From the NCBI GenBank assembly GCA_014896485.1, contig JADBKH010000020.1:19841-83840 (forward strand): a DNA stretch of 64,000 nucleotides, written 5' to 3'. This document shows, piece after piece, positions 1,706-23,136 of the stretch. Made by a program: the position numbers and the translations under genes. The stretch comes from Bacillota bacterium. Lineage in GTDB: Bacteria; Bacillota; Bacilli; Bu12. Numbering within the stretch: the stretch's first letter is position 1; every line of letters begins with the position of its first letter. The notes below the pieces were generated by a model. The model had not been told where the DNA came from, did no database searches, and saw only the letters and a list, made by a program, of their open reading frames with translations.

Positions 1706-1714
1706 AGACCATGG

Positions 1715-2353: not shown

Positions 2354-2382
2354 CCCCGCTCTTCCACCACCCATTGAGGAAT

Positions 2383-2410: not shown

Positions 2411-2424
2411 GGAAGTATTAGCGC

Positions 2425-4131: not shown

Positions 4132-4160
4132 CCTGAGTTTAACAGGGCGGGGGAAGATGT

Positions 4161-4892
4161 GTGGCTGTGATACGCGTGAGCAGTATGCAATGGGCAGGTG
4201 GTGCGACAAGTCGAAGCCGTTGGCCAGTGCTGCAGGGCCCGGAGATCGCCCTTTGCGGTCGCTCCAACGTAGGAAAATCGACGCTGATCAACCGCATGGC
4301 CGGCCAACACAACTTGGCGCACACTTCAAAGACCCCGGGGCGTACCCAACAGCTCAATTTTTATCAATGTTGGCTCAAGCCGCTTCTAGAATCGATAGAT
4401 ATGCATAGCTTTGCAACGATGCAGCGTACGCCCGACAGCCCGCTGCGTTATGGTGCCGTGCTGACTGACTTGCCAGGATATGGTTACGCCAAGGTGCCGG
4501 AAGCGCTTCTCCAGCAATTTCGGCAATTCATCACAAGCTACCTGAGAGGCCGCGATCGGCTTTCTGCTGCGCTGCTGGTCATTGATGCCCGGCGCATTAC
4601 AGAGCAGGATGAGCAGATGGCTGCTTTTTGCCATGCCCAGAACATCCGCTTCGGCGTCGTGCTCACCAAGGCAGACCAGGTTCCTCGCTCCAGACAACAT
4701 CCCTCTCTCCAGGAGGCGGCGCAGCGCCTCAAACCTGATTTTCCGCCGGTGCTCTTCTCTGCATTGCATCCCACTGAGGCCAGTAGGGATGCGCTGCTGG
4801 ATCTGCTCTATGCACTGTGGAGTGGAAACCCACTTCCGCAACGCACAGCTGTCCTCCCACCGCAGGAAGAGAACCCCTTTTCACAGAGGTGA
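4161..4892 (+). CDS. ysxC: Ribosome biogenesis GTPase YsxC/EngB
   Basis: GRSNVGKSTLINRM, TSKTPGRTQQLNFYQ, DLPGYGYAKV, TKAD motifs; follows lonB. Confidence 0.92.
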   Translation: MAVIRVSSMQWAGGATSRSRWPVLQGPEIALCGRSNVGKSTLINRMAGQHNLAHTSKTPGRTQQLNFYQCWLKPLLESIDMHSFATMQRTPDSPLRYGAVLTDLPGYGYAKVPEALLQQFRQFITSYLRGRDRLSAALLVIDARRITEQDEQMAAFCHAQNIRFGVVLTKADQVPRSRQHPSLQEAAQRLKPDFPPVLFSALHPTEASRDALLDLLYALWSGNPLPQRTAVLPPQEENPFSQR

Positions 4893-4903
4893 ACTCCCAA
4901 CGC

Positions 4904-5833
4904 TTATGCTGGCCCGGATAGGTGGTGGTCCCAAAGGGCCTGCGCTTCTCTGGCTGCTTGCTCATCTGCAGCAGTCCACCGGTCGTAGCCGATCACCTGG
5001 TAGAGCTGTTGGCGTGTAGTCATCTCAGGCAATAGCGACGTTTGGCTTCCCTCTTCAAGCAGCGTCTGGTAAGTTTTTGAAACCGCTGTCATCATCATGC
5101 GAAAAGCCGTCATGGGGTAGATGAGCAGGCGGTAGCCCGCTTCACGAAAGAACGAAGCAGGAAGGATCGGGGTTTTCCCAAACTCCGTCATGTTGGCCAA
5201 AAGTGGTACAGGGCACTCCTGTGCGAAGCGGCGAAACTCGTCTTCGTTTTCCAATGCCTCGGTGAAGATGGCATCTGCACCGGCTTGTGCATAGAGATTG
5301 GCACGTTCAATGGCTGCTTGCAGTCCTTCGACTGCACGTGCATCGGTTCGTGCGATGATCAGGAAGTCGGGATCGGTTCGCGCGTCTGTCGCTGCCTTGA
5401 TCTTTTCCAGCATTGCTTGGGAAGAGATCACTTGCTTGCCCTCAAGATGCCCACAACGTTTCGGAAAGACCTGATCTTCGATATGAATGCCGGCCAGTCC
5501 CGCCCGTTCAAAGAGTGGTATGGCTCGGCGGATGTTGACGCTTTCACCAAAACCGGTATCTGCGTCGAGAATGGCAGGAATTTGGACAGCCTGGGTGATA
5601 TACCCAGCGAGCCAAGCCACTTCCCCAAGGGAGAGCAAGCCGATATCCGGTGCCCCCAACATGCCATTGACCAAGCCTGCTCCGGATATGTAGATGGCCT
5701 CAGCGCCCTTTTGTTCGGCCAGCTGTGCACTGATCGCATTGAAAACACCAGGCAGGACCACCATATGATCGGCCATTAGCTTGCGCAGTTGCGTTCCTGC
5801 TCCCATTTTCCCACACTCCTTCGTAGCATCCAC
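4904..5833 (-). CDS. prpB: Isocitrate lyase/PEP mutase superfamily, methylisocitrate lyase-like
   Basis: ILDADTGFGE, IHIEDQVFPKRCGHLEGK, IARTDARAVEGL motifs of PrpB. Confidence 0.8.
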   Translation of the reverse strand: MDATKECGKMGAGTQLRKLMADHMVVLPGVFNAISAQLAEQKGAEAIYISGAGLVNGMLGAPDIGLLSLGEVAWLAGYITQAVQIPAILDADTGFGESVNIRRAIPLFERAGLAGIHIEDQVFPKRCGHLEGKQVISSQAMLEKIKAATDARTDPDFLIIARTDARAVEGLQAAIERANLYAQAGADAIFTEALENEDEFRRFAQECPVPLLANMTEFGKTPILPASFFREAGYRLLIYPMTAFRMMMTAVSKTYQTLLEEGSQTSLLPEMTTRQQLYQVIGYDRWTAADEQAAREAQALWDHHLSGPA

Positions 5834-5946
5834 GCTCTATCGTAGCGGAGCACCGTGGCAGGCTCAAGGAGTGTTAAACCTGGATGGAGTTTGTTTATCT
5901 CGATCATGGAAGCGTGTTAGAATCGCTGTGCGAAAGGAGGAACGGC

Positions 5947-6369
5947 ATGAAACTCCGCGCGCATCATCTGCTGTGCACCCAAGGCTTTGTGGGGATGGGG
6001 TATTCTGACGCATTTACGCGCAATATGGCCGATGTCGTTGCGCGGATGGATGCAGGGGAAGCCATTGAAGTGGTCGATTTGTGTGACGATATCTGTGCCG
6101 CGTGTCCCCATCGCAAGGGTACGGCCTGCGGTGCTTCTGATCATGCCGAAGCAGATATCCAGGCGCTCGATGCGCGAGCTCGTGCACAGCTGGGGTTTGC
6201 CGTCGGCGAAGTTGTCGATGTATCTTTGATTCACCGGAGCCTGCGCCAGCGGCCGGTCGCGCAAAAGTTGCCCGAGATCTGTGTCGGTTGCCAATGGTTG
6301 TCCCATGGTGTCTGTCAACAGGCGCTGCAACGCCTTGAAGGAGGTCTCCCTGTCCATGGTGCCGTTTGA
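5947..6369 (+). CDS. DUF1284 domain protein (putative cysteine-rich metal-binding protein)
   Basis: MKLRAHHLLCTQGFVGMGYSDAFTRNM N-terminus and CxxC/CxxC pattern; preceded by AAGGAGG. Confidence 0.75.
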   Translation: MKLRAHHLLCTQGFVGMGYSDAFTRNMADVVARMDAGEAIEVVDLCDDICAACPHRKGTACGASDHAEADIQALDARARAQLGFAVGEVVDVSLIHRSLRQRPVAQKLPEICVGCQWLSHGVCQQALQRLEGGLPVHGAV

Positions 6370-6994
6370 AGAAGTCTTACCGACGGTCTTTCAGTGCCGT
6401 CTACGGGAGCCGGAAACCGGAACGTTTTCTTATCTGATTCGACGTCCGCAAGGCAACCTATTGGTCGATACTCCTCCCGTTACCGACGCGGTTTTGGCGG
6501 CGATAGATGCAATGGGAGGCGTTGTTGCGCTATTTTTGACCGATGCTTCTCATACCGCCAAAGCATATACGCTCGTCGAAAGGTTTGGGTGTGCGGTGAT
6601 TGCCCACGAGAAAGAGGTGGACGCGACTGGCTTGCCCGAGGTACATGCTTTCTCCGAAGATATCCAGTGGGCGCCGGAAATCCGCTTGCTTGCGCTGCCA
6701 GGACGGACCAAAGGTTCAGCAGGACTCTATTATGAACCCCAGCGAGCCCTTTTTACCGGAGATCTGGTCACCTATGATGGCGAAGCGTTTGTTTTGGGAT
6801 TGATCCCACAAGATGCGAATCGCATGGAAAAACGCGCTTCAATTCTGCGTTTGGTTCAGATTCCCTTTCAGACCATCCTCCGCGCTCATGGCAACGAACA
6901 GGCTCCTGCTATCATCTACAACGCCTATCCGGACTTTGCCGCTTTTGTGGAAGAGACCAAGCAGCGCGCGTTGATGCCAGATGACGGTGCCTGA
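6356..6994 (+). CDS. MBL-fold metallo-hydrolase-like protein
   Basis: Fold pattern FSYLIRRPQGNLLVDTPP..., LLALPGRTKGSAGLYYEPQRALFTGDL; ATG at 6356 overlaps the DUF1284 stop; the HxHxDH metal motif is not intact. Confidence 0.6.
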   Translation: MVPFEEVLPTVFQCRLREPETGTFSYLIRRPQGNLLVDTPPVTDAVLAAIDAMGGVVALFLTDASHTAKAYTLVERFGCAVIAHEKEVDATGLPEVHAFSEDIQWAPEIRLLALPGRTKGSAGLYYEPQRALFTGDLVTYDGEAFVLGLIPQDANRMEKRASILRLVQIPFQTILRAHGNEQAPAIIYNAYPDFAAFVEETKQRALMPDDGA

Positions 6995-7001
6995 TTTGCG
7001 T

Positions 7002-7670
7002 CTATTTTCCCACCGTTCGAATACCATGCTCATGACCGATGATGGCCATCGAGGCGATTTCACAAAACAGCCCCGTTTCGACGACACCGGGCAGTAATTT
7101 CAGCTTTTCGTGAAGTTTCTGCGGAGCATCGATGGGTCCAAAGTCGCAGTCAAGCATGTAATTACCATTGTCCGTTTGAAACGGTGTGCTGGCAATCTGA
7201 CGCAAGGTGCAAGTGGCACCTATTTGGCAGATGCGCTCGGCCGTTGTCTGCCAGGCAAACGGGACAATCTCGACGGGGAGGTGAAAGCTGCCGAGAACCG
7301 GCACACATTTGCTTTCGTCGGCGACGATCACCACACGTTCGCTGGCCAAAGCAACCAGTTTTTCCCGCAGCAGTGCGCCGCCGCCCCCCTTGATCAAACA
7401 AAGCCCCGGGTCGATCTCATCGGCACCGTCGATATCCAGATCCAGTCGGCGTGTTGCAGAAAAATCGGTCAGCGGAATGCCCAGCTGGTGTGCGAGACGC
7501 TCGGTTTGAAGTGAAGTCGGAATGCCGATCACATGCAGCCCTGCGGCAATCCGCCGGCTCAAGGCCAACAGGGTGTAGCGCACGGTCGAACCCGTACCCA
7601 GCCCGATTCGCATGCCATCCTCCACCAGTGCTGCAGCGGCTTCACCTGCGTGTGCCTTTGCCTCTTCCAC
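7002..7670 (-). CDS. rpiA: Ribose-5-phosphate isomerase A
   Basis: GLGTGSTV, DIDGADEIDPGLCLIKGGGGALLREK, VIVADESK motifs. Confidence 0.93.
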   Translation of the reverse strand: MEEAKAHAGEAAAALVEDGMRIGLGTGSTVRYTLLALSRRIAAGLHVIGIPTSLQTERLAHQLGIPLTDFSATRRLDLDIDGADEIDPGLCLIKGGGGALLREKLVALASERVVIVADESKCVPVLGSFHLPVEIVPFAWQTTAERICQIGATCTLRQIASTPFQTDNGNYMLDCDFGPIDAPQKLHEKLKLLPGVVETGLFCEIASMAIIGHEHGIRTVGK

Positions 7671-7768
7671 GAAGCAATCCCTTCCCTTCTGATCTCCTGC
7701 TGTCGGGCGGGTTCATTGTACCATGGGGAAAAGTGCAGTACAGGGGTCGAACTTTTCAAAAATATAAC

Positions 7769-7782
7769 TTGATTACAATCAA
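7769..7782. promoter_or_regulatory. Candidate operator palindrome upstream of the acyl-CoA operon
   Basis: TTGATT-AC-AATCAA perfect inverted repeat 42 bp before the ATG at 7824. Confidence 0.3.
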
Positions 7783-7823
7783 AATTGGAAGTACACTCCA
7801 GAAAAGATAGGAGATGGCGTTGC

Positions 7824-8993
7824 ATGCAGTTTTCCTTGACTCCCCAGCAGGAAGCCTGGCGCGAAGAGGTTGAAGCCTTTTTGCGTGAGAACATGACCGA
7901 AGAACTACGCCAAGAACTCTGGGAATCTGGAGGTATTCGACGGGGACCCCATGAGAAGGCTTTCCGCAAGAAAGTGGCCGAGCGCGGATGGAATGGCCTG
8001 AATTGGCCCAGGGCTTACGGCGGATTGGAAAAGAGCGCCATTGAACAGCTCATCCTTATCGATGCTTTCGAGCGTGCGGGTGCCCCCATGTTGGATCTGA
8101 CCGTCACCTCCCTGGGGCCAACCATTATCCGGTTTGGAACAGAAGAGAACAAACGGAAGTGGTTGCCGCCGATCATCCGGGGAGAGGTTGATTTTACCTT
8201 GGGCTATTCCGAACCGAATGCCGGGACGGATTTGGCCAATTTGCAGACACGGGCGGTGCTTGAGGGAGAAGAATGGGTGATCAACGGCCAAAAAATCTGG
8301 AACAGTGAAGCCCACTTGACCACCCACGAATGGTTGGCCGTACGAACAGACCCCGATGCTCCGCCACATCGTGGCATTTCGGTGATCATTGTGCCGATCA
8401 ATGCCCCTGGTGTGACGGTCAATCCGCTGTGGACATGGGGAGATGTACGCACCAATTTGACGTTTTTTGAAAACGTGCGTGTTCCCAAAGAAAACCTGAT
8501 CGGCGAAGCTAACCAGGGCTGGTACTACATCATGGCTGCCCTCGATTTCGAACGTGTGGCTTTGGGGAGCACAGGCTCTTTGCGCCGACTGCTGGATGAT
8601 CTCACTGCATTCTGCAAAGAGACTGTGCTGGATGGAGCGGTACTGGCTCAGCGTCCAGAGGTACAGCTGAAGCTGGCTGAATTGGAGATGGATCTTGAAA
8701 TTGGCAGCCTGTTCGGCCTGCGGACGGCTTCTCTCATTGACGCTGGAAAGGTGCCCAATGCAGAAGCGTCGATGCAGAAGGTCTTTACGACCGAACTTCG
8801 TACGAAATTGGCCGATTGGGGGATGCAAATCCTCGATATGTATGGCCAACTCAACAAGCGTGACCGTTGGGCTCCGTTGCGAGGGCGGGTGGAAGAGACC
8901 TATCGCCAAGCGCCTTTTCTGCGCTTTGGTGGTGGTACCAACGAGATTCAACGCAACATCATCGCACAACGCGGCTTCGGACTGCCACGATAA
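7824..8993 (+). CDS. Acyl-CoA dehydrogenase
   Basis: LGYSEPNAGTDLANLQTRA, VINGQKIWNS, RFGGGTNEIQRNIIAQRGFGLPR; start at MQFSLTPQQ. Confidence 0.92.
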   Translation: MQFSLTPQQEAWREEVEAFLRENMTEELRQELWESGGIRRGPHEKAFRKKVAERGWNGLNWPRAYGGLEKSAIEQLILIDAFERAGAPMLDLTVTSLGPTIIRFGTEENKRKWLPPIIRGEVDFTLGYSEPNAGTDLANLQTRAVLEGEEWVINGQKIWNSEAHLTTHEWLAVRTDPDAPPHRGISVIIVPINAPGVTVNPLWTWGDVRTNLTFFENVRVPKENLIGEANQGWYYIMAALDFERVALGSTGSLRRLLDDLTAFCKETVLDGAVLAQRPEVQLKLAELEMDLEIGSLFGLRTASLIDAGKVPNAEASMQKVFTTELRTKLADWGMQILDMYGQLNKRDRWAPLRGRVEETYRQAPFLRFGGGTNEIQRNIIAQRGFGLPR

Positions 8994-9039
8994 AAGGCGA
9001 TTCGCTACCGTCATACCCGGATGAATACGCCATGAGGAG

Positions 9040-10188
9040 ATGTTCTGCGTGGATTTGACACTTTCTGAGGAGCAGCAGATGCTGCAGCGTTCGGCCCGGG
9101 ACTTTCTCGAGCGTGCATGCCCGACCACAAAGGTGCGCGCACTGCGTGAGCCTTCATCCAGTGGTCACGACCCGGAACTGTTTCAGCAAATGGGCGAACT
9201 TGGGTGGTTGGGCTTACCTTTTTCAGAACAGTATGGCGGTGGTGGCGCTACCCTGTTTGAGCTTGGCCTGATCTACGAAGAGGCCGGGCGCGCTCTGGTG
9301 CCCACCTCGCTTTACAGTACGGTAGAGGCAGCCTTACTACTCGATGCTTTGGGCAGTGAAGCGCAGAAAGAGGGCTGGCTGCCTGCGATGGTGGCCGGTC
9401 AACGTGTCAGTACCCTTGCTGCCAGCGAACCCCAGGCGATCCATGATCCTCGTTTTTGGAAGACCCAGGCGCAAAAGCAGGGCAGCCACTGGATCTTGCA
9501 TGGGAGGAAGGTGTTTGTGCGTAATGCCCACTTGGCAGAACCGCTTTTTGTCGTTGCACGCACCGGAAGCGGTGCTGTTCCGTCGAGCTTGACTGTTTTT
9601 GCTGTCTCCCCCCAAGCCGAAGGATGCCTCCTTGAGTCGCAAGAGACATTTGGAAAGGATCGCCAGAGTCTTGTCTCGTTGGACGGAGTAGAGGTAGAAG
9701 AGGATGAGATCGTCGGTGGCAAGGCAGCAATCGGGCGTTCCTGGGAAGCACTGGTGCATCTCAACGAGCAGACGACGGCGCTGCAATGTCTCGAAATGGT
9801 GGGCGGCGCGCAGCGTGTGCTTGAGATGACGGTCGATCACGTACGCACCCGCGAACAGTTTGGGCGGCCAATTGGCAGCTTCCAGGCGGTGCAGCACCAT
9901 GTGGCCAATATGGCGATTGCAGTCGATGGAGCGCGATTGGCCAGTTACCAGGCGCTGTGGCGTGTCGCCAATGACCTCTCCGCAACGCGTGAGGTGGCGA
10001 TTGCCAAAGCATGGTCAGGCGAAGCGTACAAACAGGTAACCGTAATGGCCCACCAGCTTTTTGGCGGGATGGGGTACGTAAAAGAGACGGATCTACATCT
10101 GTGGTCGGAACGGGCCAAGGCGGCCGAACTTTTCTTGGGCGCGCGTGACAACCAACTGCAGCGTTTGGCCAAGGCGATGGGACTGTAG
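9040..10188 (+). CDS. Acyl-CoA dehydrogenase (second, tandem)
   Basis: DLTLSEEQQMLQRSARDFL, RTREQFGRPIGSFQAVQHHVANM, HQLFGGMGYVKETDLH. Confidence 0.9.
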   Translation: MFCVDLTLSEEQQMLQRSARDFLERACPTTKVRALREPSSSGHDPELFQQMGELGWLGLPFSEQYGGGGATLFELGLIYEEAGRALVPTSLYSTVEAALLLDALGSEAQKEGWLPAMVAGQRVSTLAASEPQAIHDPRFWKTQAQKQGSHWILHGRKVFVRNAHLAEPLFVVARTGSGAVPSSLTVFAVSPQAEGCLLESQETFGKDRQSLVSLDGVEVEEDEIVGGKAAIGRSWEALVHLNEQTTALQCLEMVGGAQRVLEMTVDHVRTREQFGRPIGSFQAVQHHVANMAIAVDGARLASYQALWRVANDLSATREVAIAKAWSGEAYKQVTVMAHQLFGGMGYVKETDLHLWSERAKAAELFLGARDNQLQRLAKAMGL

Positions 10189-10220
10189 AGACGACAAGGC
10201 GAGAGGAAAGGGGCCGTCGG

Positions 10221-11012
10221 ATGGGCTACCGGACGATTCGTTACGAGACACAGGGACACGTCGCTATCTTGATCCTCAACCGCCCGGAAGTGATGAACGC
10301 CGTCAACGCGCAGATGACGGCAGAAGCTGGGGATGCCCTTGAAACATTTGCAAAACAGCAGGAGTCGTGGGTTTGTGTGATCACTGGCACAGGGGATCGG
10401 GCTTTCTGCGCCGGGGCTGACCTGAAGGAGGTTGGGCAGCACCTGGGTGCCTTGGCCGACCCAGGAGCGATGCGTTTCGGTTTTGCTGGAATTACCCAGC
10501 ATTTCATCGCTAAACCGCTGATCGCTGCCGTCAATGGCTTTGCGTTGGGTGGTGGAACCGAGATTGCCCTGGCCTGTGATCTGGTCATCGCTTGCGAGCA
10601 GGCCTCGTTCGGTTTGCCCGAGGTCAAGCGCGGCATTCTGGCAGCTGCCGGTGGATTGCTGCGCTTGCAGCGACAGATCCCCTTAAAACGAGCTGCTGAG
10701 CTGATCTTTACAGGGGAACCGCTTTCTGCTGCGGAGGCCTATCGACTTGGGTTGGTCAACCGTGTGGTGCCACCACAGCAGTTGATGGACGAGGCGCTTT
10801 CCCTGGCGCACAAGATCTGCGAAGCTGCACCGCTGGCCGTACAGTCCAGCAAGGAGATCCTTTACCGTAGTCTCAACTTACCGCTGGATCCTCTCACCAG
10901 CGCATGGGATGTCAACGCCCAGTACTTGCCGAAAGTGTTTGCTTCTCAGGATGCCAAAGAGGGTGTCGCAGCCTTTAACGAAAAGCGCCCCCCACACTGG
11001 AGCGGACGCTAA
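10221..11012 (+). CDS. Enoyl-CoA hydratase/isomerase
   Basis: RAFCAGADLKEVG, INGFALGGGTEIALACDLVIA crotonase motifs. Confidence 0.92.
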   Translation: MGYRTIRYETQGHVAILILNRPEVMNAVNAQMTAEAGDALETFAKQQESWVCVITGTGDRAFCAGADLKEVGQHLGALADPGAMRFGFAGITQHFIAKPLIAAVNGFALGGGTEIALACDLVIACEQASFGLPEVKRGILAAAGGLLRLQRQIPLKRAAELIFTGEPLSAAEAYRLGLVNRVVPPQQLMDEALSLAHKICEAAPLAVQSSKEILYRSLNLPLDPLTSAWDVNAQYLPKVFASQDAKEGVAAFNEKRPPHWSGR

Positions 11013-11092
11013 GAGAAGATCGGGAAGCAGGTGCTGTTTTGGCACAGGCTGGAAGTAAAACACAGCTCGATCGGGGCAAAGGGGGAGAAAGT

Positions 11093-12295
11093 GTGTCCCA
11101 AGTGTTGGACGATGTACGCATCGTCGATCTAAGCCGATGGATACCCGGTGACTACTGCACAAAGCTGTTTGCCGATTTTGGCGCCGATGTGATCAAAGTG
11201 GAGAAACCCTCGGAGGGCGATTGGACACGTCATTATGGTCCATTCCCAGGTGATCGGCCCGACCCCGAAAAAAGCGCGCTTTTCCTCCATCTCAACACCA
11301 ACAAACGTTCGATCACGCTAAATTTGAAAAGTAAAGATGGAAAGCAAATTCTCTGGCAGTTGATCCTTCGTGCAGACGTTTTGGTCGAATCGTTTCGACC
11401 AACCACGATGGAATCCTTGGGGTTTCCATGGGAAGAACTTCATGCCCGCAACCCCCGTTTGGTTTACACGCGGATCAGCAACTTTGGCCAAGATGGTCCG
11501 TATCGGGACGATCAGGCCTCCGGGTTGACCTTGCAAGCGATGGGTGGGCCCATGCAGTCGACGGGCTTGGCCGATCGGGAACCGTTGCAAAAGCCGGGCA
11601 ACCTTTCGCTTTACTCGATCGGCAATATGGCTGCCGAAGCCACGATGGCTGCTCTACTGGTCAGCAAAGGGCAGGGTGAAGGACAACAGATCGATGTGAG
11701 CGGCCTGGAGGCACTCCTCTCTTCGGTAGATCGCAGGATGACCTTCCTGATGGCTGCCTCCTATACCGGGGAAGATGCACCACGTGGAGAAGGGGCGATC
11801 AGTCTATTTCCTACCGGTGCTTTTCCCTGTGCGGATGGCTACGTAATGTTCTTTGTGGCGCCGGCTTTCTTCAAGGGATTGCTCGAGCTTTTGGGTGATC
11901 CGCAACTTTTGGCTTATTTTGAAGATCTCGAGGCGATTTATCGGCCTGAGGAATCCCGTGCACGTCTGGACGAGGTGCTCTATCCCTGGCTGATGTCTCA
12001 CACCAAAGCAGAAATCATGGAGCTTGCAGAGTCCCACCAAGTACCAATTACGGCGGTCTATACCATCGAAGAGATGCGCAACAGCACCCATTTCCGGGAA
12101 AGGGGTTTCATGGAACCCATCGATCATCCGGTTGCGGGGACATTGGAGTATCCAGGCGCTCCTTGGCGTATGCGCCATGGTTGGGCCCTGCGACGTCCTG
12201 CACCTCGACTGGGAGAACAGACCGAAGAGATTCTCACGGAGTTGGGCTATCATCCCGATGCTTTGCCGCTGTTGCGTGCCAATGGCGTGATCTGA
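11093..12295 (+). CDS. Family III CoA-transferase (CaiB/BaiF), A-type subunit
   Basis: DDVRIVDLSRWIPGDYCTKLFADFGADVIKVEKPSEGD and GQQIDVSGLEALL; alternative in-frame start at 11039. Confidence 0.9.
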   Translation: MSQVLDDVRIVDLSRWIPGDYCTKLFADFGADVIKVEKPSEGDWTRHYGPFPGDRPDPEKSALFLHLNTNKRSITLNLKSKDGKQILWQLILRADVLVESFRPTTMESLGFPWEELHARNPRLVYTRISNFGQDGPYRDDQASGLTLQAMGGPMQSTGLADREPLQKPGNLSLYSIGNMAAEATMAALLVSKGQGEGQQIDVSGLEALLSSVDRRMTFLMAASYTGEDAPRGEGAISLFPTGAFPCADGYVMFFVAPAFFKGLLELLGDPQLLAYFEDLEAIYRPEESRARLDEVLYPWLMSHTKAEIMELAESHQVPITAVYTIEEMRNSTHFRERGFMEPIDHPVAGTLEYPGAPWRMRHGWALRRPAPRLGEQTEEILTELGYHPDALPLLRANGVI

Positions 12296-12307
12296 GGGGG
12301 GAGAGGA

Positions 12308-13597
12308 ATGGCAAGGTTACCTCTGGAAGGCGTGCGTGTGGTCGACATGACGGTCGTCTGGTCAGGACCGGGATGTACCATGCTACTGGGCGATCTGGGC
12401 GCTGAAGTGATCCGTGTGGAGACGGCGCAACATTTCCCCAACTCAACCCGTGGCATTGCACCGCGGTTGTCCAAAGAGCAGGCTGAAAAGCTCGGTTATA
12501 TCGGAAGTGCTTTTCCAAATAAAGATCCTGGGGAACATCCCTACAACCGACAGGCCATGTTTAATTGTCATGGACGTAACAAACGCAGTGTCACCATGGA
12601 CCTCAGTCGGCCGGAAGGCCGGGAAGCGTTCTTGAAGTTGATCGCCATCAGCGATGTCTTTGTCGAAAACAATGCGTTACGTGTCCTGGATCATCTCCAA
12701 CTGACCTACGATGTCCTTCGGGAAGTTAACCCTCGGCTGATCATGGTTCGAATGGCCCCGTTGGGCATGAGTGGGCCTTTTCACCAGTTTCTTGGCTTTG
12801 GTCCAAATTTCAATGCTTTGGCCGGCCTGGTGGCGATGAGCGGTTACTACAATGCCGATCCTACTACGGCCGGTGAAAACTATCATATGGACGAGGCGGC
12901 GGCACCGGCGGCCGCATTTGCGGTGATGGCGGCGCTGTATGACCGCGCCAAGAGCGGAGAGGGGCAACAGATTGAATTCGCGCAGTGTGAGAACCTGATC
13001 GAGGGGTTGGGAGAGTGGATTCTCGACAACCAGATGAACCCAGGTCGGCTGCCCTCCGTTCTTGGCAATCGAGATCTCTATCTGTTACAGGGTGTCTACC
13101 CCACCTTGGAAGAGAACCGGTTTGTCGCCCTCACTATTCGCAATGACCAGGAATGGGAACGTCTGGTACGTCTGATGGGGGATCCGCCTTGGGCAAAAGA
13201 TCCCTTGTTTTGTACAGCAGTAGGGCGTTTGGAGCACCAAGACGAAATTGACACTCACTTGGCCGCGTGGACTGCATTGCGTCGTCCCGGACAGCTCTTT
13301 GCCCTGCTGCAAGCTGAAGGGTTGGCAGCAGGACCTGTTTGGCCAGAGTCGGTCGCCTTGGCCGATCCCCATCTGGCAGAGCGCGGCTATTTCCGTCCGC
13401 TCACCCAAACGGAATCTGGAACGCACCTGCATCCTGGCCACCCTTGGAAAGCGTCGGGTATGGAGCTGCAATGGTCGAAAGGGGCACCTTGTTTGGGCGA
13501 AGATAACGCCTATGTCTACAAAGAGCTTCTCGGTTATTCGGAGTCGCAGTACCAGGCGATGATCGAAGCGGGACATGCGCGAACAGAATACGTCTGA
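12308..13597 (+). CDS. Family III CoA-transferase (CaiB/BaiF), B-type subunit
   Basis: LEGVRVVDMTVVWSGPGCTMLLGDLGAEVIRVE, NRNKRSVTMDLSRPEGRE-like region; tandem with the A-type gene. Confidence 0.9.
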   Translation: MARLPLEGVRVVDMTVVWSGPGCTMLLGDLGAEVIRVETAQHFPNSTRGIAPRLSKEQAEKLGYIGSAFPNKDPGEHPYNRQAMFNCHGRNKRSVTMDLSRPEGREAFLKLIAISDVFVENNALRVLDHLQLTYDVLREVNPRLIMVRMAPLGMSGPFHQFLGFGPNFNALAGLVAMSGYYNADPTTAGENYHMDEAAAPAAAFAVMAALYDRAKSGEGQQIEFAQCENLIEGLGEWILDNQMNPGRLPSVLGNRDLYLLQGVYPTLEENRFVALTIRNDQEWERLVRLMGDPPWAKDPLFCTAVGRLEHQDEIDTHLAAWTALRRPGQLFALLQAEGLAAGPVWPESVALADPHLAERGYFRPLTQTESGTHLHPGHPWKASGMELQWSKGAPCLGEDNAYVYKELLGYSESQYQAMIEAGHARTEYV

Positions 13598-13609
13598 AAT
13601 CATTGTTCA

Positions 13610-13657
13610 ACAAGCAAAGGGCACCCGCAACTGTTGTGTGGGTGCTCTTTGCTTGTG
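13610..13657. terminator. Intrinsic, probably bidirectional terminator between convergent genes
   Basis: ACAAGCAAAGGGCACCCGCA-actgt-TGTGGGTGCTCTTTGCTTGT hairpin with GU pairs. Confidence 0.8.
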
Positions 13658-13675
13658 ACGAGCAGCGACTCTGAT

Positions 13676-14092
13676 TCAGGACTTGGTCCAGCGCAGGGCA
13701 GTGCCCATCCCGTCAGTTTCATCAAAAGCGGCGCGAACGATCATGCCGCATTCCAAGCGTTCAACGTCTGGATCAAAGTAAGGGGCCAAGAGGCGTATTC
13801 CCTGGCCCAGATCGGCATCGACGATGCCATAGGGCAGGTGCTCTTTGAACCACGGGTGAAAGGCTCGGTAACAGACGGTATACGTGTATATACTGCCTTG
13901 CTGTCCGATTTCTGCCCATTCCAGTGCGGGGCGATGGCAGACAAAGCAAAACTCCCGCGGCGGCCACTGCCAGTGACCACAGGAAGAACAGCGTTGCACC
14001 ATCAGCTTGTGCTCCTGCAAACCCTGGATGTACGGTCGGTAAAGGGGCTCTTGGGCATTGGGCAATGGTCGTGCGATCGCAGCTGTAGGCAT
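13676..14092 (-). CDS. DUF35 Zn-ribbon/OB-fold acyl-CoA-associated protein
   Basis: LMVQRCSSCGHWQWPPREFCFVCHRP (CxxC...CxxC) followed by OB-fold pattern GSIYTYTVCYRAFHPWFK..PYGIVDADL. Confidence 0.88.
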   Translation of the reverse strand: MPTAAIARPLPNAQEPLYRPYIQGLQEHKLMVQRCSSCGHWQWPPREFCFVCHRPALEWAEIGQQGSIYTYTVCYRAFHPWFKEHLPYGIVDADLGQGIRLLAPYFDPDVERLECGMIVRAAFDETDGMGTALRWTKS

Positions 14093-14113
14093 CTTCCAGT
14101 TCCTCCCTTTGCA

Positions 14114-15286
14114 TCAGTTATGCAGAATGGCCAAAGATCCATCACTGAAGTCCCCGTACCCGGTGACCAAACCGATATGCGCCTGTTCAACCTGTGCAGC
14201 GCCTGCCTCGCCCCTTAGCTGGCGGACCGCTTCGACGACGTGGTTCATGCCGATGACGTGTGCCTGGGAAAGCAGCCCGCCGTGCGTGTTGACCGGAAGC
14301 TCTCCGCCCAAGCCGATACGCCTTTCCTTGACGAATTCGGGAGATTCTCCACGGGCACAAAAACCCATCTCTTCGAGCTGCCGCAGCACGATGAAGGTGA
14401 AGCAATCATAGATTTCCGCAAAATCGATCTCGTCTCGGGTGATGCCGGCGGACGCAAAGGCCCTTGGCGCAGCTTTGGTGATCCCCATGTTGAGAATATC
14501 CGGTCGACTGCTCAGGTCGTCTGGAACGTCCGCGTGTCCCTCGGCACCGCCGGCAATATAAACCGGGCGATGCCCAGTATACAGAGAGGCGTCTGCCGCA
14601 CTGGTCAACAAGACGGCTGCAGCCCCATCCGTCTCTAAACAGATGTCAAACAAATGAAACGGTTTGACCAGGATTGGCGAGGCATCGTACTGTTCGGCTG
14701 TCAGGGGCCGATCTTTCATGTACGCCTTGGGATTGAGATGGGCATGCTCACGGGTGGTCAACGCTACGATTTTCATGCCTTCTGGATCGGCGTGGGTCTC
14801 GTAGAACCAGCGATTGGCATGGAGGCTGTACCACTGCATCGGCACCATTAATCCCGCGGGATATTCGATATTCCTCCGAATCTCTCGTCCGGGTCCCCCG
14901 AGATCTCTTGAGGTTGCATCTTCTGATCCCAATCGCACTCCCGAAAAGGATCGCCAGCCTGTAGCGACGATCACACGGTGCGCACGGCCGGCCGCAATCA
15001 TCGCTGCTGCCTCGATGATCCCTGCAACGGCGCTGGCACCTCCGATGTGGATGTGGGCATGAGCATGCAGATCGCGAATTCCCAGTGCAGCGACGAAATC
15101 TTCATTGGTGGGGACGTCGACCATCGCCATCACCACGCCGTCGACTGATTCCGGCTCTATCCCCGCATCTGCACAGGCTGCCAGCGCTGCCTCCAGAATG
15201 AGTTGTCGATCGTTTTTTTCCGTTCCGCGGACGTAGTCGGTCTCTCCTGTGCCGACGATGATCGCCTTGTCTGTGATGGGATCCAT
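14114..15286 (-). CDS. Thiolase-fold protein (SCP-x/Ltp2-like lipid-transfer thiolase or aldolase)
   Basis: AIIVGTGETDYVRGTEKND, IYDCFTFIVLRQLEEMGFC, LPVNTHGGLLSQAHVIGMNHVVEAVRQLRG; no Cys at the usual nucleophile position. Confidence 0.85.
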   Translation of the reverse strand: MDPITDKAIIVGTGETDYVRGTEKNDRQLILEAALAACADAGIEPESVDGVVMAMVDVPTNEDFVAALGIRDLHAHAHIHIGGASAVAGIIEAAAMIAAGRAHRVIVATGWRSFSGVRLGSEDATSRDLGGPGREIRRNIEYPAGLMVPMQWYSLHANRWFYETHADPEGMKIVALTTREHAHLNPKAYMKDRPLTAEQYDASPILVKPFHLFDICLETDGAAAVLLTSAADASLYTGHRPVYIAGGAEGHADVPDDLSSRPDILNMGITKAAPRAFASAGITRDEIDFAEIYDCFTFIVLRQLEEMGFCARGESPEFVKERRIGLGGELPVNTHGGLLSQAHVIGMNHVVEAVRQLRGEAGAAQVEQAHIGLVTGYGDFSDGSLAILHN

Positions 15287-15342
15287 CCTTTTCTCTTCCT
15301 CCCCACTGGCAAGTTGTGCATGGTTGAAACACTGTGGGAATT

Positions 15343-16506
15343 TCAGTAAGACTTCGGCAATCCGAGTACGTGCTCACCAATAAAATTGAGGATCATCTGG
15401 TTGTTGACCGGTGCAGTCTTGCCCAGGCGGGATGCCTGCCATCCTTGCAGAATTTCGTAATCGCGATCGAAACCGTACCCACCGTGTGCCTGCAGGACAA
15501 TATCCCAAGCGTCGAAAGCGGCTTCGGAGGCCAATAGTTTGGCCATATTGGATTCAACGGCGGCGGATTCCCCGGCGTCAAAGCGCTCGGTTGCACGGTA
15601 GAGCATCAAACGGGCAGCATCGAGTCGTGCCCGTGCCATTGCCATCGGATGTTGCAGCGCTTGGTAATGGCCGATGGGATCTTCGCCAAAGACGACCCGT
15701 TGCTTGGCGTAAGCGACACCCTTTTCTAGCGCCAGATAACCGGAACCGATCGCCGAGGCCGCGCCTATCTGTCGTTCCGGGTTGAGGCCATCAAACAGGT
15801 AGCGTATCCCCATACCCTCTTCCCCAAGGCGGTTTTCAGCAGGGACAGGGACATCGTTAAAGAAGACGTGGAATTGCTTGTCTGGCTCTTCCAACCCGAT
15901 GTTGAGGGGACGCATCTCGATGCCGGGGGAGTGTAGATCGACCAAGAAGAGGGTCAGTCCCATGCGCCGATCGGAGACCTGTTGATACGGGGTCGTGCGG
16001 GCGACGACGAGGGCGTAATCAGAGACATGGATATCGGAAATGAAAATTTTCTGGCCGGTGAGGCAGTAGCTTCCGTCGGGCTGTGGGGTAGCCAACGTTT
16101 CGATTTTAAACGTATTGGTTCCAGCGTTTGGTTCGGTGATGGCAAAACACAGTTTGAGCTCACCTGTCGCCGTTTTGGGCAAAAAACGTCGGCGCTGTTC
16201 TTCGGTTCCATATTTTAAAATGGGAATACGTGACAGGCCGGTGACCACCAAAAGCAAGGTAGCCGTGCCGTGCCGAGCCAACTCCTCCATGACGAGCGCC
16301 AGCTCGGTCATACCGCCGCCGCTGCCCCCGTATGTTTCCGGAACCGTCAGGCCAAGCAAGCCCAACTCACCCATTTCGTGCCACATATCGTCGACCCAGC
16401 GGTCTTCGGCAATGCATCTCTTCCAGTAGTTGCGGTCGTACTTTTTACACAGTTGAGCCACACTGTCACGAAGCAGTGCCCGTTGCTGCTCCACTCCGGA
16501 TGTCAT
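15343..16506 (-). CDS. Acyl-CoA dehydrogenase (third)
   Basis: LCFAITEPNAGTNTFKIET, LTGQKIFISDIHVSDYALVVART, HGGYGFDRDYEILQGWQ. Confidence 0.9.
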   Translation of the reverse strand: MTSGVEQQRALLRDSVAQLCKKYDRNYWKRCIAEDRWVDDMWHEMGELGLLGLTVPETYGGSGGGMTELALVMEELARHGTATLLLVVTGLSRIPILKYGTEEQRRRFLPKTATGELKLCFAITEPNAGTNTFKIETLATPQPDGSYCLTGQKIFISDIHVSDYALVVARTTPYQQVSDRRMGLTLFLVDLHSPGIEMRPLNIGLEEPDKQFHVFFNDVPVPAENRLGEEGMGIRYLFDGLNPERQIGAASAIGSGYLALEKGVAYAKQRVVFGEDPIGHYQALQHPMAMARARLDAARLMLYRATERFDAGESAAVESNMAKLLASEAAFDAWDIVLQAHGGYGFDRDYEILQGWQASRLGKTAPVNNQMILNFIGEHVLGLPKSY

Positions 16507-16529
16507 CTAAACCATTTCTCCTTTTCTAA

Positions 16530-16559
16530 TTGACAATTCGTTACATTTTATACTATACT
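16530..16559 (+). promoter_or_regulatory. Candidate sigma-A promoter in divergent ACAD/CoA-transferase intergenic region
   Basis: TTGACA - 18 nt - TATACT. Confidence 0.5.
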
Positions 16560-16603
16560 GATCATAGTGATAGAATACAAGTTATTTTATTGAATGGATT
16601 GCG

Positions 16604-17604
16604 GTGGGGGAAAGGCCAGAAAACGAGGGGTCACCAGAGGTCCCTACCCAGGTTTTTGAGGGGTTACAGCTCTTAGATCTCTCTACAGGGATTGCCGGAG
16701 AATATTGCACCAAATTATTCGCCGATTTTGGGGCGACGGTCATCAAGGTCGAGCCGAGAGAAGGGAGTCCGACACGACGTTGGCAGCAAGTCGGGGAAGT
16801 CAGCCCGCTTTATTCGCACCTCAATACGAACAAACGTTCCATCACCCTAGATCCTTCCACTGCGACAGGAGCTTCCATTCTATTGGAGCTTGCCGCACAT
16901 GCGGATGGGATGGTTGAGTCCTTTGGGACAGGTGTACTTGTACTGGAGTCATGGGGATTATCCTGGCCTCGCCTGCAGGCGATCAATCCGGCCCTGGTAT
17001 TGACCCGTATCACTGCATTCGGGTTAAACGGACCTTATGCGCAGGATGCGGCAACGCAGCTGTCGCTTGCTGCCATGGGCAGCGCAATGAACAGTTCTGG
17101 TCGTGCCGATCGGGAGCCTTTACAAAAGCCGGGGCATCTCGTCTCCTATTCGGTTGGCAATACGGCTGCCGTAGCTACCTTGGGGGCGTTGTGGATGGCG
17201 CAGCGAACACACACCGGCCAGCAGATCGACGTCAGCGCATTGGAAGCATTGGCTGAACCGCAGGCAATTGGGCAATTCAACGAGCGTTTTTACCCTTGGT
17301 TGATGAGCCATACCCGCCAAGAAATCATGTCAATTTGTCAAGAAGCACATCTTCCGGTTCTGGCCGTCTATGGTATGCGCGATCTGCTCGAATCCGAGCA
17401 TTTTCGCACCCGCGAATTTTGGGTTGAGCAACCTGTGGCCGATGGACGTCCGCTGCAGTTTCCGGGTCCCCCTTGGCGTATGGAAGGGGATGGATGTTGC
17501 GGCACCCTGCGCCTGCCTTGGGTGAAGCGACCGTAGAGATGCTGTCTGAATTGGGATGGAGCCGACAGGATATCGATACACTCTATAATATAAAAGTAAT
17601 ATAG
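16604..17604 (+). pseudogene. Disrupted second A-type CaiB/BaiF CoA-transferase: internal in-frame deletion plus C-terminal frameshift
   Basis: Strong similarity to the 11093-12295 product, but ~75 aa missing between VSALEAL and FYPWLMSHTRQEIM; the C-terminus continues in another frame (LRHPAPALGEATVEMLSELGWSRQDIDTL) from ~17496. Confidence 0.8.
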
Positions 17605-17620
17605 AAATTGGAGTGAGATC

Positions 17621-18910
17621 ATGCCGCTTCCTCTGGAAGGCATTCGGGTGACCGATCTGGCAGTGGTTTGGTCTGGACCGATGGCAGCCACCCTGCTCGC
17701 CGATCTGGGTGCCGAAGTGATCCATTTGGAAAATCTCCGCCATCCTCCCACATTGACCCGGGGAGTGTTGCTCCGTCCTACGCGGGAGCAATCGCTGCTA
17801 TTGGGACCTTTGGGCTCTGGTTATCCCGATCATGAACCGGGACAGCGTCCCTGGAATCGCACGGCCATGTTCAACGCTCATGGGAGAAACAAGCGGTGTG
17901 CCACCGTCGATTTAACCCAAGCGAGTGGTCATGAGATCTTTTTACGGCTCATTGAAAAAAGCGATGTCTTTATTGAAAACAATGCACGCACGACGCTTGA
18001 ACATCTGGGGCTTGACGCGACGGTGCTTTTCGAGGTGAATCCACGTCTGATCCTGTTGCGCATGCCTCCTTTGGGGTTGGAGGGACCGTTTGCCGCATAC
18101 CGGGGGTTTGGGCCAACGTTTAATTCGTTGGCAGGCGTGACGGCAATGGGAGGCTATCACGATGCTGACCTGACCAGTCAAGGCGACAACTACCATATGG
18201 ATGAGGCTGCTGCTCCGGCGGCAGCCTTTGCTGTAATGGCCGGGCTTTGGCGCCGGGAACAGAGCGGGACTGGCCAGCTGATCGAGTTTCCTCAAGTAGA
18301 AAACTTGATCCAGCAGCTCGGAGAGTACTTGATCGCGTTCCAGCTTACCGCAGAGGAGCCGCCCCTTTATGGCAACCGGGATCCATACCTTGTCCAGGGA
18401 GTCTATCCCTGCCCAGGATCCGATCGGTGGATCGCCATCTCGCTGCGTGATGATGCAGACTGGGCGGCGCTCAAGCGCGCGATGGGCGCCCCTGCTTGGG
18501 CTGAAATGGAGATTTTCTCAACGCATTTGTTGCGCATGCACAACCAGAATGCCCTGGACGAGCGGATTGCGGCTTGGACCTCTACGTTGTGACCGGAAGC
18601 ACTGCATCGCTTACTGCAAAGCGAGAAGATTCCGGCAGGCCCTGTGCTCCGCGAGTCGGATGCATACGCCGATCCCACTCTGGCAGAGAGGAACTTTTTC
18701 CGTCCCATGACGCATCCGGAGGCAGGAACGCACCGTTATCCGAGCCATCCTTGGCGATACTCACAAACCCTTTTGCGCTGGGATCGTCCTGCACCGCGTA
18801 CGGGCGAAGACAATGAGTATGTCTACAAAGAACTCCTGGGCTATTCGGAAGAAGCGTATCGCCGTTTTGCCGAGATGGGGCATGTCGGTATGGATTTGCT
18901 GGCAACGTAG
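17621..18910 (+). pseudogene. Second B-type CaiB/BaiF CoA-transferase interrupted by an in-frame TGA
   Basis: ORF 17621-18592 and downstream ORF 18644-18910 share one frame; the paralogue has Arg where TGA (18590-18592) lies: WTSTL*PEALHRLLQSEKIPAGP vs WTALRRPGQLFALLQAEGLAAGP. Confidence 0.85.
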
Positions 18911-19043
18911 TTTCCGCTGTCGGCATGTAGGCGAGAATTGCTCTGTGCGCAGCTGCGAGCGCCTTGTGGTGCATGCGGAAGTCTGTTAGCATTAAGAATA
19001 CTGGGAACCTAGAAAAGCAAATGGGGAAAGAAGGGAAGCGTTC

Positions 19044-19856
19044 GTGGAAGTATCGGCGGATTCACCCGTGCAAGTGGAACAGGCCCAGGAGGGCTATGCA
19101 ATCATCCGGATCAACCGACCTCACGTGGCAAACAGTCTTAACGACGAGGCGTTGCACCTGCTGAAGCAAAGCATCGAACAAGTGGGCAGACAGAAGGGAA
19201 CGCGCGCCGTGGTGCTCACGGGAACAGGGCACTTTTTCTGTGCCGGTGCTGATCTGCAGCAGGACGAGGGCAACCCGATTGCTGGAGGAGGGGCCGGTGC
19301 TGTGGGAGCGGCCCATGTGCGCGAGCTGTATTCAGCGTTGGCCGTAGGGCTGGCGAATTTGGATCTGCCTGTCCTTGCTGCGATCAATGGGGCCTGTGCC
19401 GGAGCTGGTTTGGGCATCGCGCTGCTTTGTGATTTCCGTATTGCTATTCAAGGGGCAACCTTTACGACAGCGTTTGCGAAGATTGCGTTGGCCCCAGATA
19501 CTGCTGTCAGTTGGACGTTGCCGCGCATTGTTGGTACACAGCTCGCAAGGCGGTTGCTGTTGAGCAGTGAGCGCTTTTCAGCCGAAGAGGCGCTGCAATG
19601 GGGGCTCGTCGACGAGGTGGCAGATACGACAGACTTTGAGCAACGTTGGCGGACCCAGGCCACTGCGTTGGCCCAGGGACCGACGCTGGCCTATGGCGCT
19701 ATGAAGCGACTGTTGCGCAACACAGAGACGAACACGTTGGAAGAACAGGCTGGCTTAGAAGCGTTGGAACAAGGGTATTTGATTGCCAGCGAGGATTTTC
19801 AGGAGGGAGGTCGTGCTTTTCTGGAAAAGCGTTCGCCCCATTTTGAAGGACGTTAG
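19044..19856 (+). CDS. Enoyl-CoA hydratase/isomerase (second)
   Basis: FFCAGADLQQDEG, INGACAGAGLGIALLCDFRIA, FLEKRSPHFEGR. Confidence 0.9.
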   Translation: MEVSADSPVQVEQAQEGYAIIRINRPHVANSLNDEALHLLKQSIEQVGRQKGTRAVVLTGTGHFFCAGADLQQDEGNPIAGGGAGAVGAAHVRELYSALAVGLANLDLPVLAAINGACAGAGLGIALLCDFRIAIQGATFTTAFAKIALAPDTAVSWTLPRIVGTQLARRLLLSSERFSAEEALQWGLVDEVADTTDFEQRWRTQATALAQGPTLAYGAMKRLLRNTETNTLEEQAGLEALEQGYLIASEDFQEGGRAFLEKRSPHFEGR

Positions 19857-19992: not shown

Positions 19993-21351
19993 ATGCGCAG
20001 AGCGTCAAAACACTGGATGCAAGTCGCGCTGTCTGCAAGTTTGGCTCTCTTGTTGGCGGGGTGTTCAGGTGCTCAGGCAGAAAAAGGCTCCACCACCGTG
20101 CAAAGCACTCAAAAGATCCCTGTCTCTGTAAGCACGGCCCAGCGGGGATCGTTACAGACACAAGTGTTGGCCAGTGGTGTGGTGACTGCTGCGTCCCAGA
20201 CGGCTGTGTTGCCTTTGGCCTCAGGAACGGTACGTTCGGTCGATGTGGACGTCGGGCAGCAGGTCTATAAGGGAGATCCCCTCTTTGCCGTGGATGCAGA
20301 AACTGCTTCTGCTCAACTGCAGCAGGCGCAAGCTGGGCTCAAAGCGGCTGAGGCACAGTTGGCTGCCGCGGAGACACAGGCTGATGTACAGCTGGCACAG
20401 GTGCAGACGGCCCTCAAACAAGCGCAAGCGACCCTACAGCAGGCCCAAGCAGCCGAAAAGGCTGCCATGCATGTCTCAACAGCGGTCACGCAAGTTTCTG
20501 GTGCTCTGCCTTCTGGCCAGGCTCCTGGTGCTCCTGCACAAGGAGCCTCCTCCCCAAGCCAGCCCCCCTTCTGCAGCGCCTACTGGAGCTAGCGCATTCT
20601 CTCTCTCCCGAACAGGCTAAAGCCAACCTGGAAGCTGCGCAAGCAGGGGTCGATGCCGCACAACAAGCATTGGATGCGGCACGGGAAAAGGCCCCGGTCG
20701 CAGCGGCTCAAGCAGGGGTCGATCAGGCACGGGCAGCGGTCCAAGCTGCACAGCTGCAGGTAGACAATGCTACGGTGGAAGCGCCAGTGGAAAGGACCGT
20801 GACTGCTATCAATGTCAGCGTCGGCAGTATTGCGTCCCCGCAAATGCCGCAACCTGCTGTGATGATCGAACAACTCAATCCCCTGCAGTTCACCCTCTCC
20901 CTAACAGAAAATCAGATCGGCAATGTAATCCCCCGAAAGTGTTTTGACAACCTCCATTCCTGCTGCCGGTGTCGGAACTGTCAAGCTGCACGTGATCCGT
21001 GTTGCCCCTGCAGGCAACCCGCAGCTGCATACTTTTACCGTCAAAGCGCAGTTTAATTCAGCCCCAAAGGGTGTCCGGGAAGGAATGACGGTTTCGGTCC
21101 AGCTGCCTGGCCAACGCTCGAAGGAAGGCATCGTCATCCCACTCGACGCACTTTTTCAGCAGCAGGGCGTCTACGAGGTCTACGTTGTCGATGTCAATGG
21201 CACCGCGCATTTGCGACAGGTTGCGTTGATCCAGCAGAATGAGCAACAAGCTGTCTTGGCTTCAGGGGTACGTGCAGGAGAGCAGGTTGTGACGAAGGGA
21301 CAGAACTTGTTGCATGATGGGGTCGCAACAGAGGTCATTGCACATGAGTAG
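19993..21351 (+). pseudogene. RND efflux membrane-fusion (adaptor) lipoprotein with two frameshifts
   Basis: LLAGCSG lipobox, VLPLASGTVRSVDVDVGQQVYKGDPLFAVD biotinyl-lipoyl motif; frame changes at a C6 tract (~20573) and a C5 tract (~20930). Confidence 0.8.
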
Positions 21352-21399
21352 CTGTCTGAGGAAGAGCCGCTTCTTCCTACATAAAGGAGAGCTGCTTTA

Positions 21400-22860
21400 A
21401 ATATCGCTCGTTTCTCGGTCCAGCGGCCCGTCTTTGTCACAGTTATTATCGTAGCCATCTTGCTCATCGGTACCGTGGTTTTGCCAACGTTACCGATCGA
21501 TTTACTGCCACCACTGCAGTATTCTGCTGCAGTGGTGGTTACGGCCGACCCAGGTGCTGCGCCCGGTGAGGTGGAGACACTGGTCACCGATCCGGTTGAA
21601 GGCGCTGTCGGAACGGTTCCAGGAGTGACCTCGGTACAGTCAACCTCACAAGCCAATGTCTCTACGGTCATCGTGCAGTTTGGCTGGGGTACGGATATGA
21701 ACTTTGCCGAGCTAAAGTTGCGCAAAAACTTGACCAAGCCCGGCCACAACTTCCAGATGGGGCCCAAGCACCCCAATTGATGACGCTGGATCCCAATGCC
21801 CTGCCGGTGGTCACCTTGGCGCTCGAGGGCAACGGCGGGCTCACCCAAGTTGCCAGCGTTGCCGATCAGACCGTCCGCCAGCGCCTTGCCCGGGTCGAGG
21901 GTGTTGCCGCGATTCAGGTGCAGGGAGGTCAAACAAGACAAGTAAAGGTGGCCCTCGACCCGGCAAAATTGGCAATGTATGGCATCAGTGCCAGCCAGGT
22001 GGCGCAGGTGCTCTCTGCGCAAAACCTCTCTGCTTCAGCAGCAACGGTCGATCGGGGCAGTGGTTCCATCGACGTTGAAGTCGGCCATACCTTTCAGAAC
22101 GCACAAGAAATTGGACAGATTCCGATTCCCGTCTCGGCTCCGGCTGCGAGCAGCAGTCGTAGTGGCTCTACCCAAGCAGCTGTTCCACTCGATGTACTGG
22201 GGCGCATCATCGACGGTTACGCGGATGCCAGTCAGTATACCTACGTCAATGGCAAACCTGCTGTTGTCCTGTCCGTGCAGAAAGCCTCGACTGCAAACAC
22301 CGTGCGTGTTGCTGCCGGTGTCGAACAAACAGTCCGTCAGCTCAACGCCGGGCAGCTTCCCACCGGTGTCCATCTGTCCACCGTGTTGAACCAAGCCGAC
22401 TATATCAATCTTTCCATTGGTTGTCATGTTTTCGTTGCCGGGAACTTTTATCGGCGTCGTGGCGGGATTGCTGGTCACCCGCCAACCGCTCTCTGTGACA
22501 GCGCTGATCGGGGTGCTCATGCTCATTGGCATCGTGATGAACAATGCCATCGTTTTAGTCAATTATATCAACCGGTTGCGGCGACAAACGGTGGAAACCG
22601 ATGAGGCGATCGCACGAGCAGGTCCCATTCGTCTCCATCCGATTTTGATGACCGCCCTGGCGACTGTCTTGGCCTTGGTACCGTTGGCAGTGGCTGGGGG
22701 AGAGGGATCGGAGCTGCTGCGTGGCCTGGCCATTGTCGTTGGCTTTGGGTTGATACTCTCCACCTTGGTGACACTGCTTTTGGTACCGGTCGTCTACCAG
22801 CGTTTTGACCGGTTGGGAAGCTTTTTGCGGCATCGGCATCGGACGTCTCCTTCGAGTCAG
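21400..22860 (+). pseudogene. RND-family efflux permease remnant, large internal deletion and frameshifts
   Basis: NIARFSVQRPVFVTVIIVAILLIGTVVLPTLPIDLLPPLQYSAAVVV at the N-terminus, GTFIGVVAGLLVTRQPLSVTALIGVLMLIGIVMNNAIVLVNYINRLR near the C-terminus; total ~480 codons instead of ~1000; no in-frame start codon. Confidence 0.82.
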
Positions 22861-22954
22861 CCTCCCGTGACGCCGCTGTGCCAGGATTTGCCATTTGCTT
22901 GCGAGACGATTATCCTGCGCAGTACGGGAGGGAAACGAAAGGGGGGTTTGCAGC

Positions 22955-23062
22955 ATGGAGACCATAACCTATGTCTGCCCCAAATGTGGGGCAGAGCGCG
23001 AGGAAGAGGCGGAAAGCGCCCCAATTTGTTGTGGTGTCCCGATGGAACCCAAAGAGGCGTAA
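22955..23062 (+). CDS. 35-aa zinc-ribbon-like microprotein
   Basis: METITYVCPKCGAEREEEAESAPICCGVPMEPKEA; CxxC...CC motif; purine-rich RBS (GGGGGG) upstream; followed by terminator. Confidence 0.6.
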   Translation: METITYVCPKCGAEREEEAESAPICCGVPMEPKEA

Positions 23063-23102
23063 ATCAATCGCCCCATTGCGGTTCTAAACGACGAACACAG
23101 AG

Positions 23103-23136
23103 GATGAAAGGGCCTACAAGGTAGGTCCTTTCATCT
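23103..23136 (+). terminator. Intrinsic terminator
   Basis: GATGAAAGGGCCTAC-aag-GTAGGTCCTTTCATC hairpin. Confidence 0.75.

Follow-up and report, generated by a model that had tools for sequence, protein, structure and literature searches.

An acyl-CoA degradation island of a Bacilli-class bacterium combining a predicted steroid-type dehydrogenase and retro-aldolase with a two-subunit CoA-transferase

The DNA analysed here, referred to as the window, is a stretch of 64,000 nucleotides from a Bacillota bacterium of the class Bacilli (contig JADBKH010000020.1, here C13). The source genome is 2.17 Mb in size and 96% complete, and the closest rank shared by the relatives listed for it is the class. 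Positions 7824 to 19856 hold an acyl-CoA degradation island, whose gene list, drawn up in an earlier sequence-only reading, was confirmed by a Pfam search of the window proteins. On the plus strand lie genes for two acyl-CoA dehydrogenases (ACAD1, 7824..8993, and ACAD2, 9040..10188), a crotonase (ECH1, 10221..11012) and both subunits of a family III CoA-transferase (CaiA1, 11093..12295, and CaiB1, 12308..13597). These are followed on the minus strand by a stand-alone DUF35 protein with a zinc ribbon and an OB fold (13676..14092), a thiolase-fold protein of retro-aldolase type (14114..15286) and a further dehydrogenase with a helix-G Glu (ACAD3, 15343..16506). Pfam agrees with this order on both strands, and all eight genes in 7824-16506 are open frames of normal length. 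As also stated earlier, the 7.8-19.9 kb region has no short-chain dehydrogenase/reductase (SDR) or acyl-CoA ligase gene; contig C56 of the same genome carries an AMP-ligase-like gene and an SDR-MaoC-MaoC stretch.

Among PDB proteins, ACAD1 scored highest with ChsE4, an alpha subunit of steroid dehydrogenases (4x28_A, 286 bits, 42% identity), and then with Tcur3483 (263 bits), the next protein reaching 160 bits. Its helix-G Glu256 (numbered from the start at 7785) aligns with the Glu of ChsE4, the two proteins have the JK-loop FGGGTNE in common, and the Glu typical of medium-chain acyl-CoA dehydrogenases is missing. ACAD2 has a catalytic Glu at neither known site, as in a beta subunit. Alpha subunits bear the catalytic Glu, and beta subunits touch the ADP-ribose part of flavin adenine dinucleotide (FAD) (PMC11153573). 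An alpha-like subunit with the helix-G Glu next to a Glu-less partner is the ChsE-type pattern, and points to the steroid-type heteromeric dehydrogenase that the sequence-only reading had suggested. With the curated PimC model, both ChsE4 (209 bits) and ACAD1 (187 bits) remained far below the cut-off of 624, so the curated models do not distinguish PimCD from ChsE4 as the nearest dehydrogenase. ECH1 retains both positions that we take to be the Glu residues of hydratases (GGGTE and GLPEV).

The thiolase-fold protein matched TcLtp2 best, with 223 bits vs 103 bits for BbsB. The nucleophilic Cys of thiolases is replaced by Ala84 (GGAS), the motif Y293-D-C295-F (YDCF) is present as in steroid retro-aldolases, and the HD and GHP motifs of SCP-2/BbsB thiolases are absent from the alignment, which has YDCF and SQAH. 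Loss of this Cys together with a YDxx motif characterizes the Ltp2/Sal aldolases, and a 100/100 branch parts the protein from Cys-bearing thiolases in the tree. In CtSal, the catalytic residues are Tyr302 and Cys304 of a YDCY motif, and Gly replaces the nucleophilic Cys (PMC12329534). The stand-alone DUF35 is likely the partner of the aldolase, in agreement with the Ltp2-DUF35-type pair proposed from the sequence. BbsAB-type thiolysis, drawn on in the same proposal, is unlikely because the nucleophilic Cys is lost and YDCF is present, and was rejected on the active-site residues.

The best PDB matches of CaiA1 and CaiB1 were chains A and B, respectively, of benzylsuccinate CoA-transferase 9fn0 (163 bits, next 154, and 203 bits, next 125). 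With its position taken from YfdW, the catalytic Asp occurs in 100% of the B-type rows of the alignment, including Asp195 of CaiB1, and is replaced by Leu in CaiA1 and by Tyr in Bbs chain A, so that, as in BbsEF, two adjacent homologous subunits share a single Asp. A-type and B-type subunits fell on opposite sides of a 94-row tree (short search, SH-aLRT support only). Within each subunit type, the Bbs chains clustered with the G188 and G371 pairs, and the window pair fell in a separate supported clade with Nocardioides, Jatrophihabitans (B subunit only) and other pairs of its own genome. The claim of a BbsEF-like two-subunit enzyme activating an acid is therefore upheld by the chain-for-chain match and the single Asp, although the pair falls outside the clade that contains the Bbs chains of known structure.

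Further related pairs are located on contigs C56 and C65 of the same genome. On C56, positions 1-8120 of locus L014 (C56:56000-75403) form another acyl-CoA island, which encodes two acyl-CoA dehydrogenases, an SDR, two MaoC-like proteins and a distantly related CaiB-CaiA pair, together with a thiolase-like protein that contains HDAW and GHP motifs and has Ser in place of the Cys. At 16208-17872 of L014, a remnant-like 554-aa frame fuses a portion of one CaiB-type subunit with the beginning of a second one. On C65, L015 (C65:41527-42672) is an ACAD1 paralogue interrupted by a TAA, beside an intact CaiA-CaiB pair.

The sequence-only reading had also described a second CaiB(A)-CaiB(B)-ECH set on the plus strand, and hence a tandem of functional CoA-transferase pairs. 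The crotonase of this set is confirmed by Pfam: ECH2 (19044..19856) is PaaG-like, presumably lacks the two Glu residues of hydratases, and is probably an isomerase. In contrast, the pair itself is broken. CaiA2 (16604..17604, also given as 16604-17536) lacks the stretch equivalent to CaiA1 residues 227-296 and is frameshifted near 17475, so that its C-terminus is encoded in a different frame, and CaiB2 (17621..18910) is interrupted by an in-frame TGA at 18590, beyond which the frame continues unchanged through the rest of the protein up to 18910. The 28 intact genes of the window (33.5 kb) contain no internal stop and 16 of them terminate with TGA, the commonest stop; TGA recoding was therefore rejected as unlikely, and general sequence noise is unlikely too. 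With three lesions in the second pair, two working pairs were rejected as well, leaving one intact activation enzyme at the locus and no tandem. Furthermore, the HlyD-like and RND efflux genes at 19993-23124 are broken into frames, the RND fragments matching only positions 134-330 of the profile and, for the next one, 890-1020. We interpret the whole region from 16.6 to 23.1 kb as decaying. A promoter-like TTGACA-18-TATACT (11/12) is located at 16530-16559, just upstream of the broken CaiA2.

Gene order was compared by scanning named genomes for CaiB homology (80 loci fetched) and by local tblastn. In Jatrophihabitans (L029) and Nocardioides daejeonensis (L030), ACAD1-ACAD2-CaiA-CaiB is followed by an aldolase and a DUF35 gene, with identities of 50-52% for ACAD1, 38-39% for ACAD2, 49-51% for CaiA and 48-49% for CaiB. 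A MaoC-like protein precedes the aldolase in L030 (26 bits, just below the Pfam cut-off) and, in our reading, two MaoC-like open frames do so in L029. The order aldolase-DUF35-ACADalpha-ACADbeta occurs on a Croceicoccus plasmid and, with an ECH gene in between, on a Prescottella plasmid, and a Rhodococcus ZPP plasmid bears an aldolase with DUF35, ECH and two CaiB-type genes. The closest aldolase relative found, in Paenibacillus periandrae (62%), is adjacent to a DUF35 gene and to CaiB-CaiA genes that belong to another sub-clade, and 7 of the 80 loci also encode a Cys-less aldolase-type protein. Among 399 sampled genomes of the phylum, only three others passed the limit applied for CaiB, and two gave an aldolase match. 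The neighbourhood conservation put forward earlier as a check is thus only partly borne out, close homologues being almost absent from the phylum sample while the ACAD1-ACAD2-CaiA-CaiB order reappears in two distant Actinomycetota. We infer that the front end and the back end of the module were exchanged independently.

In the Croceicoccus plasmid (L112, 6606-19070), a P450 gene is located upstream of an aldolase-DUF35-ACAD-ACAD-ligase run, with FAD oxidoreductase and hydrolase genes after it. Four other sphingomonad plasmids among the matches listed encode aldolases 45-47% identical to the window protein.

The island is preceded by gerM-like, Ham1-like, Lon-like and ribosome-binding GTPase genes and followed by hemA, hemC, hemD, hemB, valS and mreB, all of Bacilli type. 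Since such housekeeping genes flank it on both sides, a contaminant contig is unlikely. If the GTPase gene and hemA adjoin in Bacillus subtilis, as we assume, the island lies within a conserved block. Farther downstream, the window encodes an old-yellow-enzyme-type NADH:flavin oxidoreductase (27327-28457) and, on the minus strand, a ribonucleotide-reductase small-chain-like protein (34289-35254, 60 bits) that could be an R2-like oxidase.

What the sequence shows is which genes are present, how they are ordered and which active-site residues they encode; from this we infer every reaction, the CoA donor and the class of substrate. The island probably activates a bulky organic acid via the two-part CoA-transferase and then removes a short piece. 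In the scheme that we favour, with reasonable though far from full confidence, it is a ligase-free module that degrades a beta-branched or alicyclic acid in one round ending in retro-aldol cleavage. The CaiA1-CaiB1 heteromer would transfer CoA from a thioester donor, probably succinyl-CoA, onto the free acid; ACAD1-ACAD2, as a ChsE-like alpha2beta2 dehydrogenase, would introduce an alpha,beta double bond; and ECH1 would hydrate it to a beta-hydroxyacyl-CoA, the hydroxyl of which would be tertiary. The thiolase-fold aldolase and DUF35 would then cleave the C-C bond, with Tyr293 as base and Cys295 as acid, yielding a ketone or aldehyde and acetyl- or propionyl-CoA. The lack of an SDR would be explained by the retro-aldol chemistry, which does not need a ketoacyl-CoA. 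One methylmalonyl-CoA mutase is encoded in the genome, so propionyl-CoA could be used; three MaoC matches also occur elsewhere in the genome. Judging from the retro-aldol chemistry, a beta-branched or alicyclic acid would fit better than a steroid. A literature search for a cyclohexylacetate retro-aldol lyase returned nothing usable.

Several observations weigh against this scheme. ACAD2 scores slightly higher to generic dehydrogenases than to steroid beta subunits, and the AlphaFold model of the aldolase, built from four sequences, was poor, with a predicted local distance difference test score (pLDDT) of 43. The thiolase-fold protein stands in a sub-clade of its own and carries His at the position of TcLtp2 Tyr344 and CtSal Gln352; therefore, its chemistry may differ. 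The Actinomycetota relatives by gene order have a different aldolase clade and MaoC hydratases. Given the decay nearby at 16.6-23.1 kb, loss of function may also be under way in the island itself. The more extreme view, that it is a relic with no working pathway left, would account for the broken CaiA2, CaiB2 and adjacent RND genes and for the stop in the ACAD1 paralogue on C65, but all eight genes upstream of the lesions are open and keep their catalytic residues where our scheme expects them, making this view very improbable.

Bbs counterparts exist for the CoA-transferase pair, ACAD, ECH, DUF35 and thiolase fold, and BbsB is a detectable homologue of the thiolase-fold protein. A Bbs-like beta-oxidation, in which an oxidising enzyme encoded elsewhere makes a 3-ketoacyl-CoA for BbsAB-type cleavage, is nevertheless unlikely, given the replaced Cys, the missing HD and GHP motifs, a score of 113 bits vs a cut-off of 750 in the BbsB equivalog model, a CoA-transferase outside the Bbs clade and an island devoid of SDR or 3-hydroxyacyl-CoA dehydrogenase genes. 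ACAD2, ACAD3, ECH1 and ECH2 are broad-family matches under all curated NCBIfam cut-offs shown, as would be expected if the island merely oxidised branched-chain fatty acids in the ordinary way and the likeness of its members to steroid enzymes reflected family breadth only. We regard this as quite unlikely, since ACAD1 stands more than 100 bits apart from generic dehydrogenases, and since distant phyla show the same aldolase residues and gene arrangement. A genuine pathway for steroid or bile-acid side chains would explain the ChsE4-like ACAD1 and the Ltp2/Sal-like aldolase with DUF35. However, no P450 was found in the 96% complete genome, where the search for ring-degradation genes covered two oxygenase families, and its sole Rieske protein occupies a frame of 218 aa, which is not long enough for a KshA-type oxygenase. 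The P450 that oxidises the side chain and the large Rieske enzyme that hydroxylates the ring in aerobic steroid degradation are thus both lacking, which makes steroids unlikely substrates. Furthermore, the hydratase is a crotonase rather than of the ChsH1-ChsH2 MaoC type, and activation would proceed by CoA transfer instead of a ligase. Altogether, a pathway of this kind is highly improbable.

The retro-aldol scheme would place steroid-type side-chain chemistry in a Bacilli lineage, apart from steroid oxygenases and coupled to activation by CoA transfer. If true, it would provide gene candidates for the degradation of tertiary and alicyclic acids and a test for the substrates of many CaiB-type pairs in Chloroflexota and Actinomycetota. 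Far more tentatively, a ligase-free retro-aldol module with a CoA-transferase in place of the ligase and freely swapped hydratases and aldolases might recur across Actinomycetota, Chloroflexota and Bacillota as a route for the degradation of alicyclic or beta-branched acids.

The module family is already known in kind, and the combination found here appears to be a variant, its function being read from sequence. Like the igr-type module (ChsE1-ChsE2, ChsH1-ChsH2, Ltp2-DUF35) that removes the propionyl side chain in steroid degraders, the island combines a heteromeric dehydrogenase with one catalytic subunit, a hydratase and a thiolase-fold aldolase with a DUF35 partner. It differs in having a crotonase for the MaoC hydratase, a DUF35 not fused to MaoC, a CoA-transferase for the ligase, and a genome without P450 or large Rieske oxygenase. 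With the Bbs pathway of anaerobic toluene degradation (BbsA-H) it shares a family III CoA-transferase of two subunits, one of which bears the Asp, an ACAD, an ECH, and DUF35 with a thiolase fold, but its CoA-transferase belongs to another clade, the thiolase Cys is lost, the SDR pair is missing and the dehydrogenase is heteromeric and steroid-type. The bile-acid aldolase Sal (CtSal-CtShy) likewise lacks the nucleophilic Cys and has the YDC(Y/F) motif, whereas the window protein belongs to a separate sub-clade, has His for CtSal Gln352 and is accompanied by a stand-alone DUF35. In ibuprofen degradation, retro-aldol release of propionyl-CoA was tied to the thiolase-annotated gene pair ipfDE (PMC9195938). 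By description rather than by sequence, this release via a thiolase-annotated pair resembles the cleavage proposed here, although ipfDE acts downstream of a CoA ligase and a ring dioxygenase.

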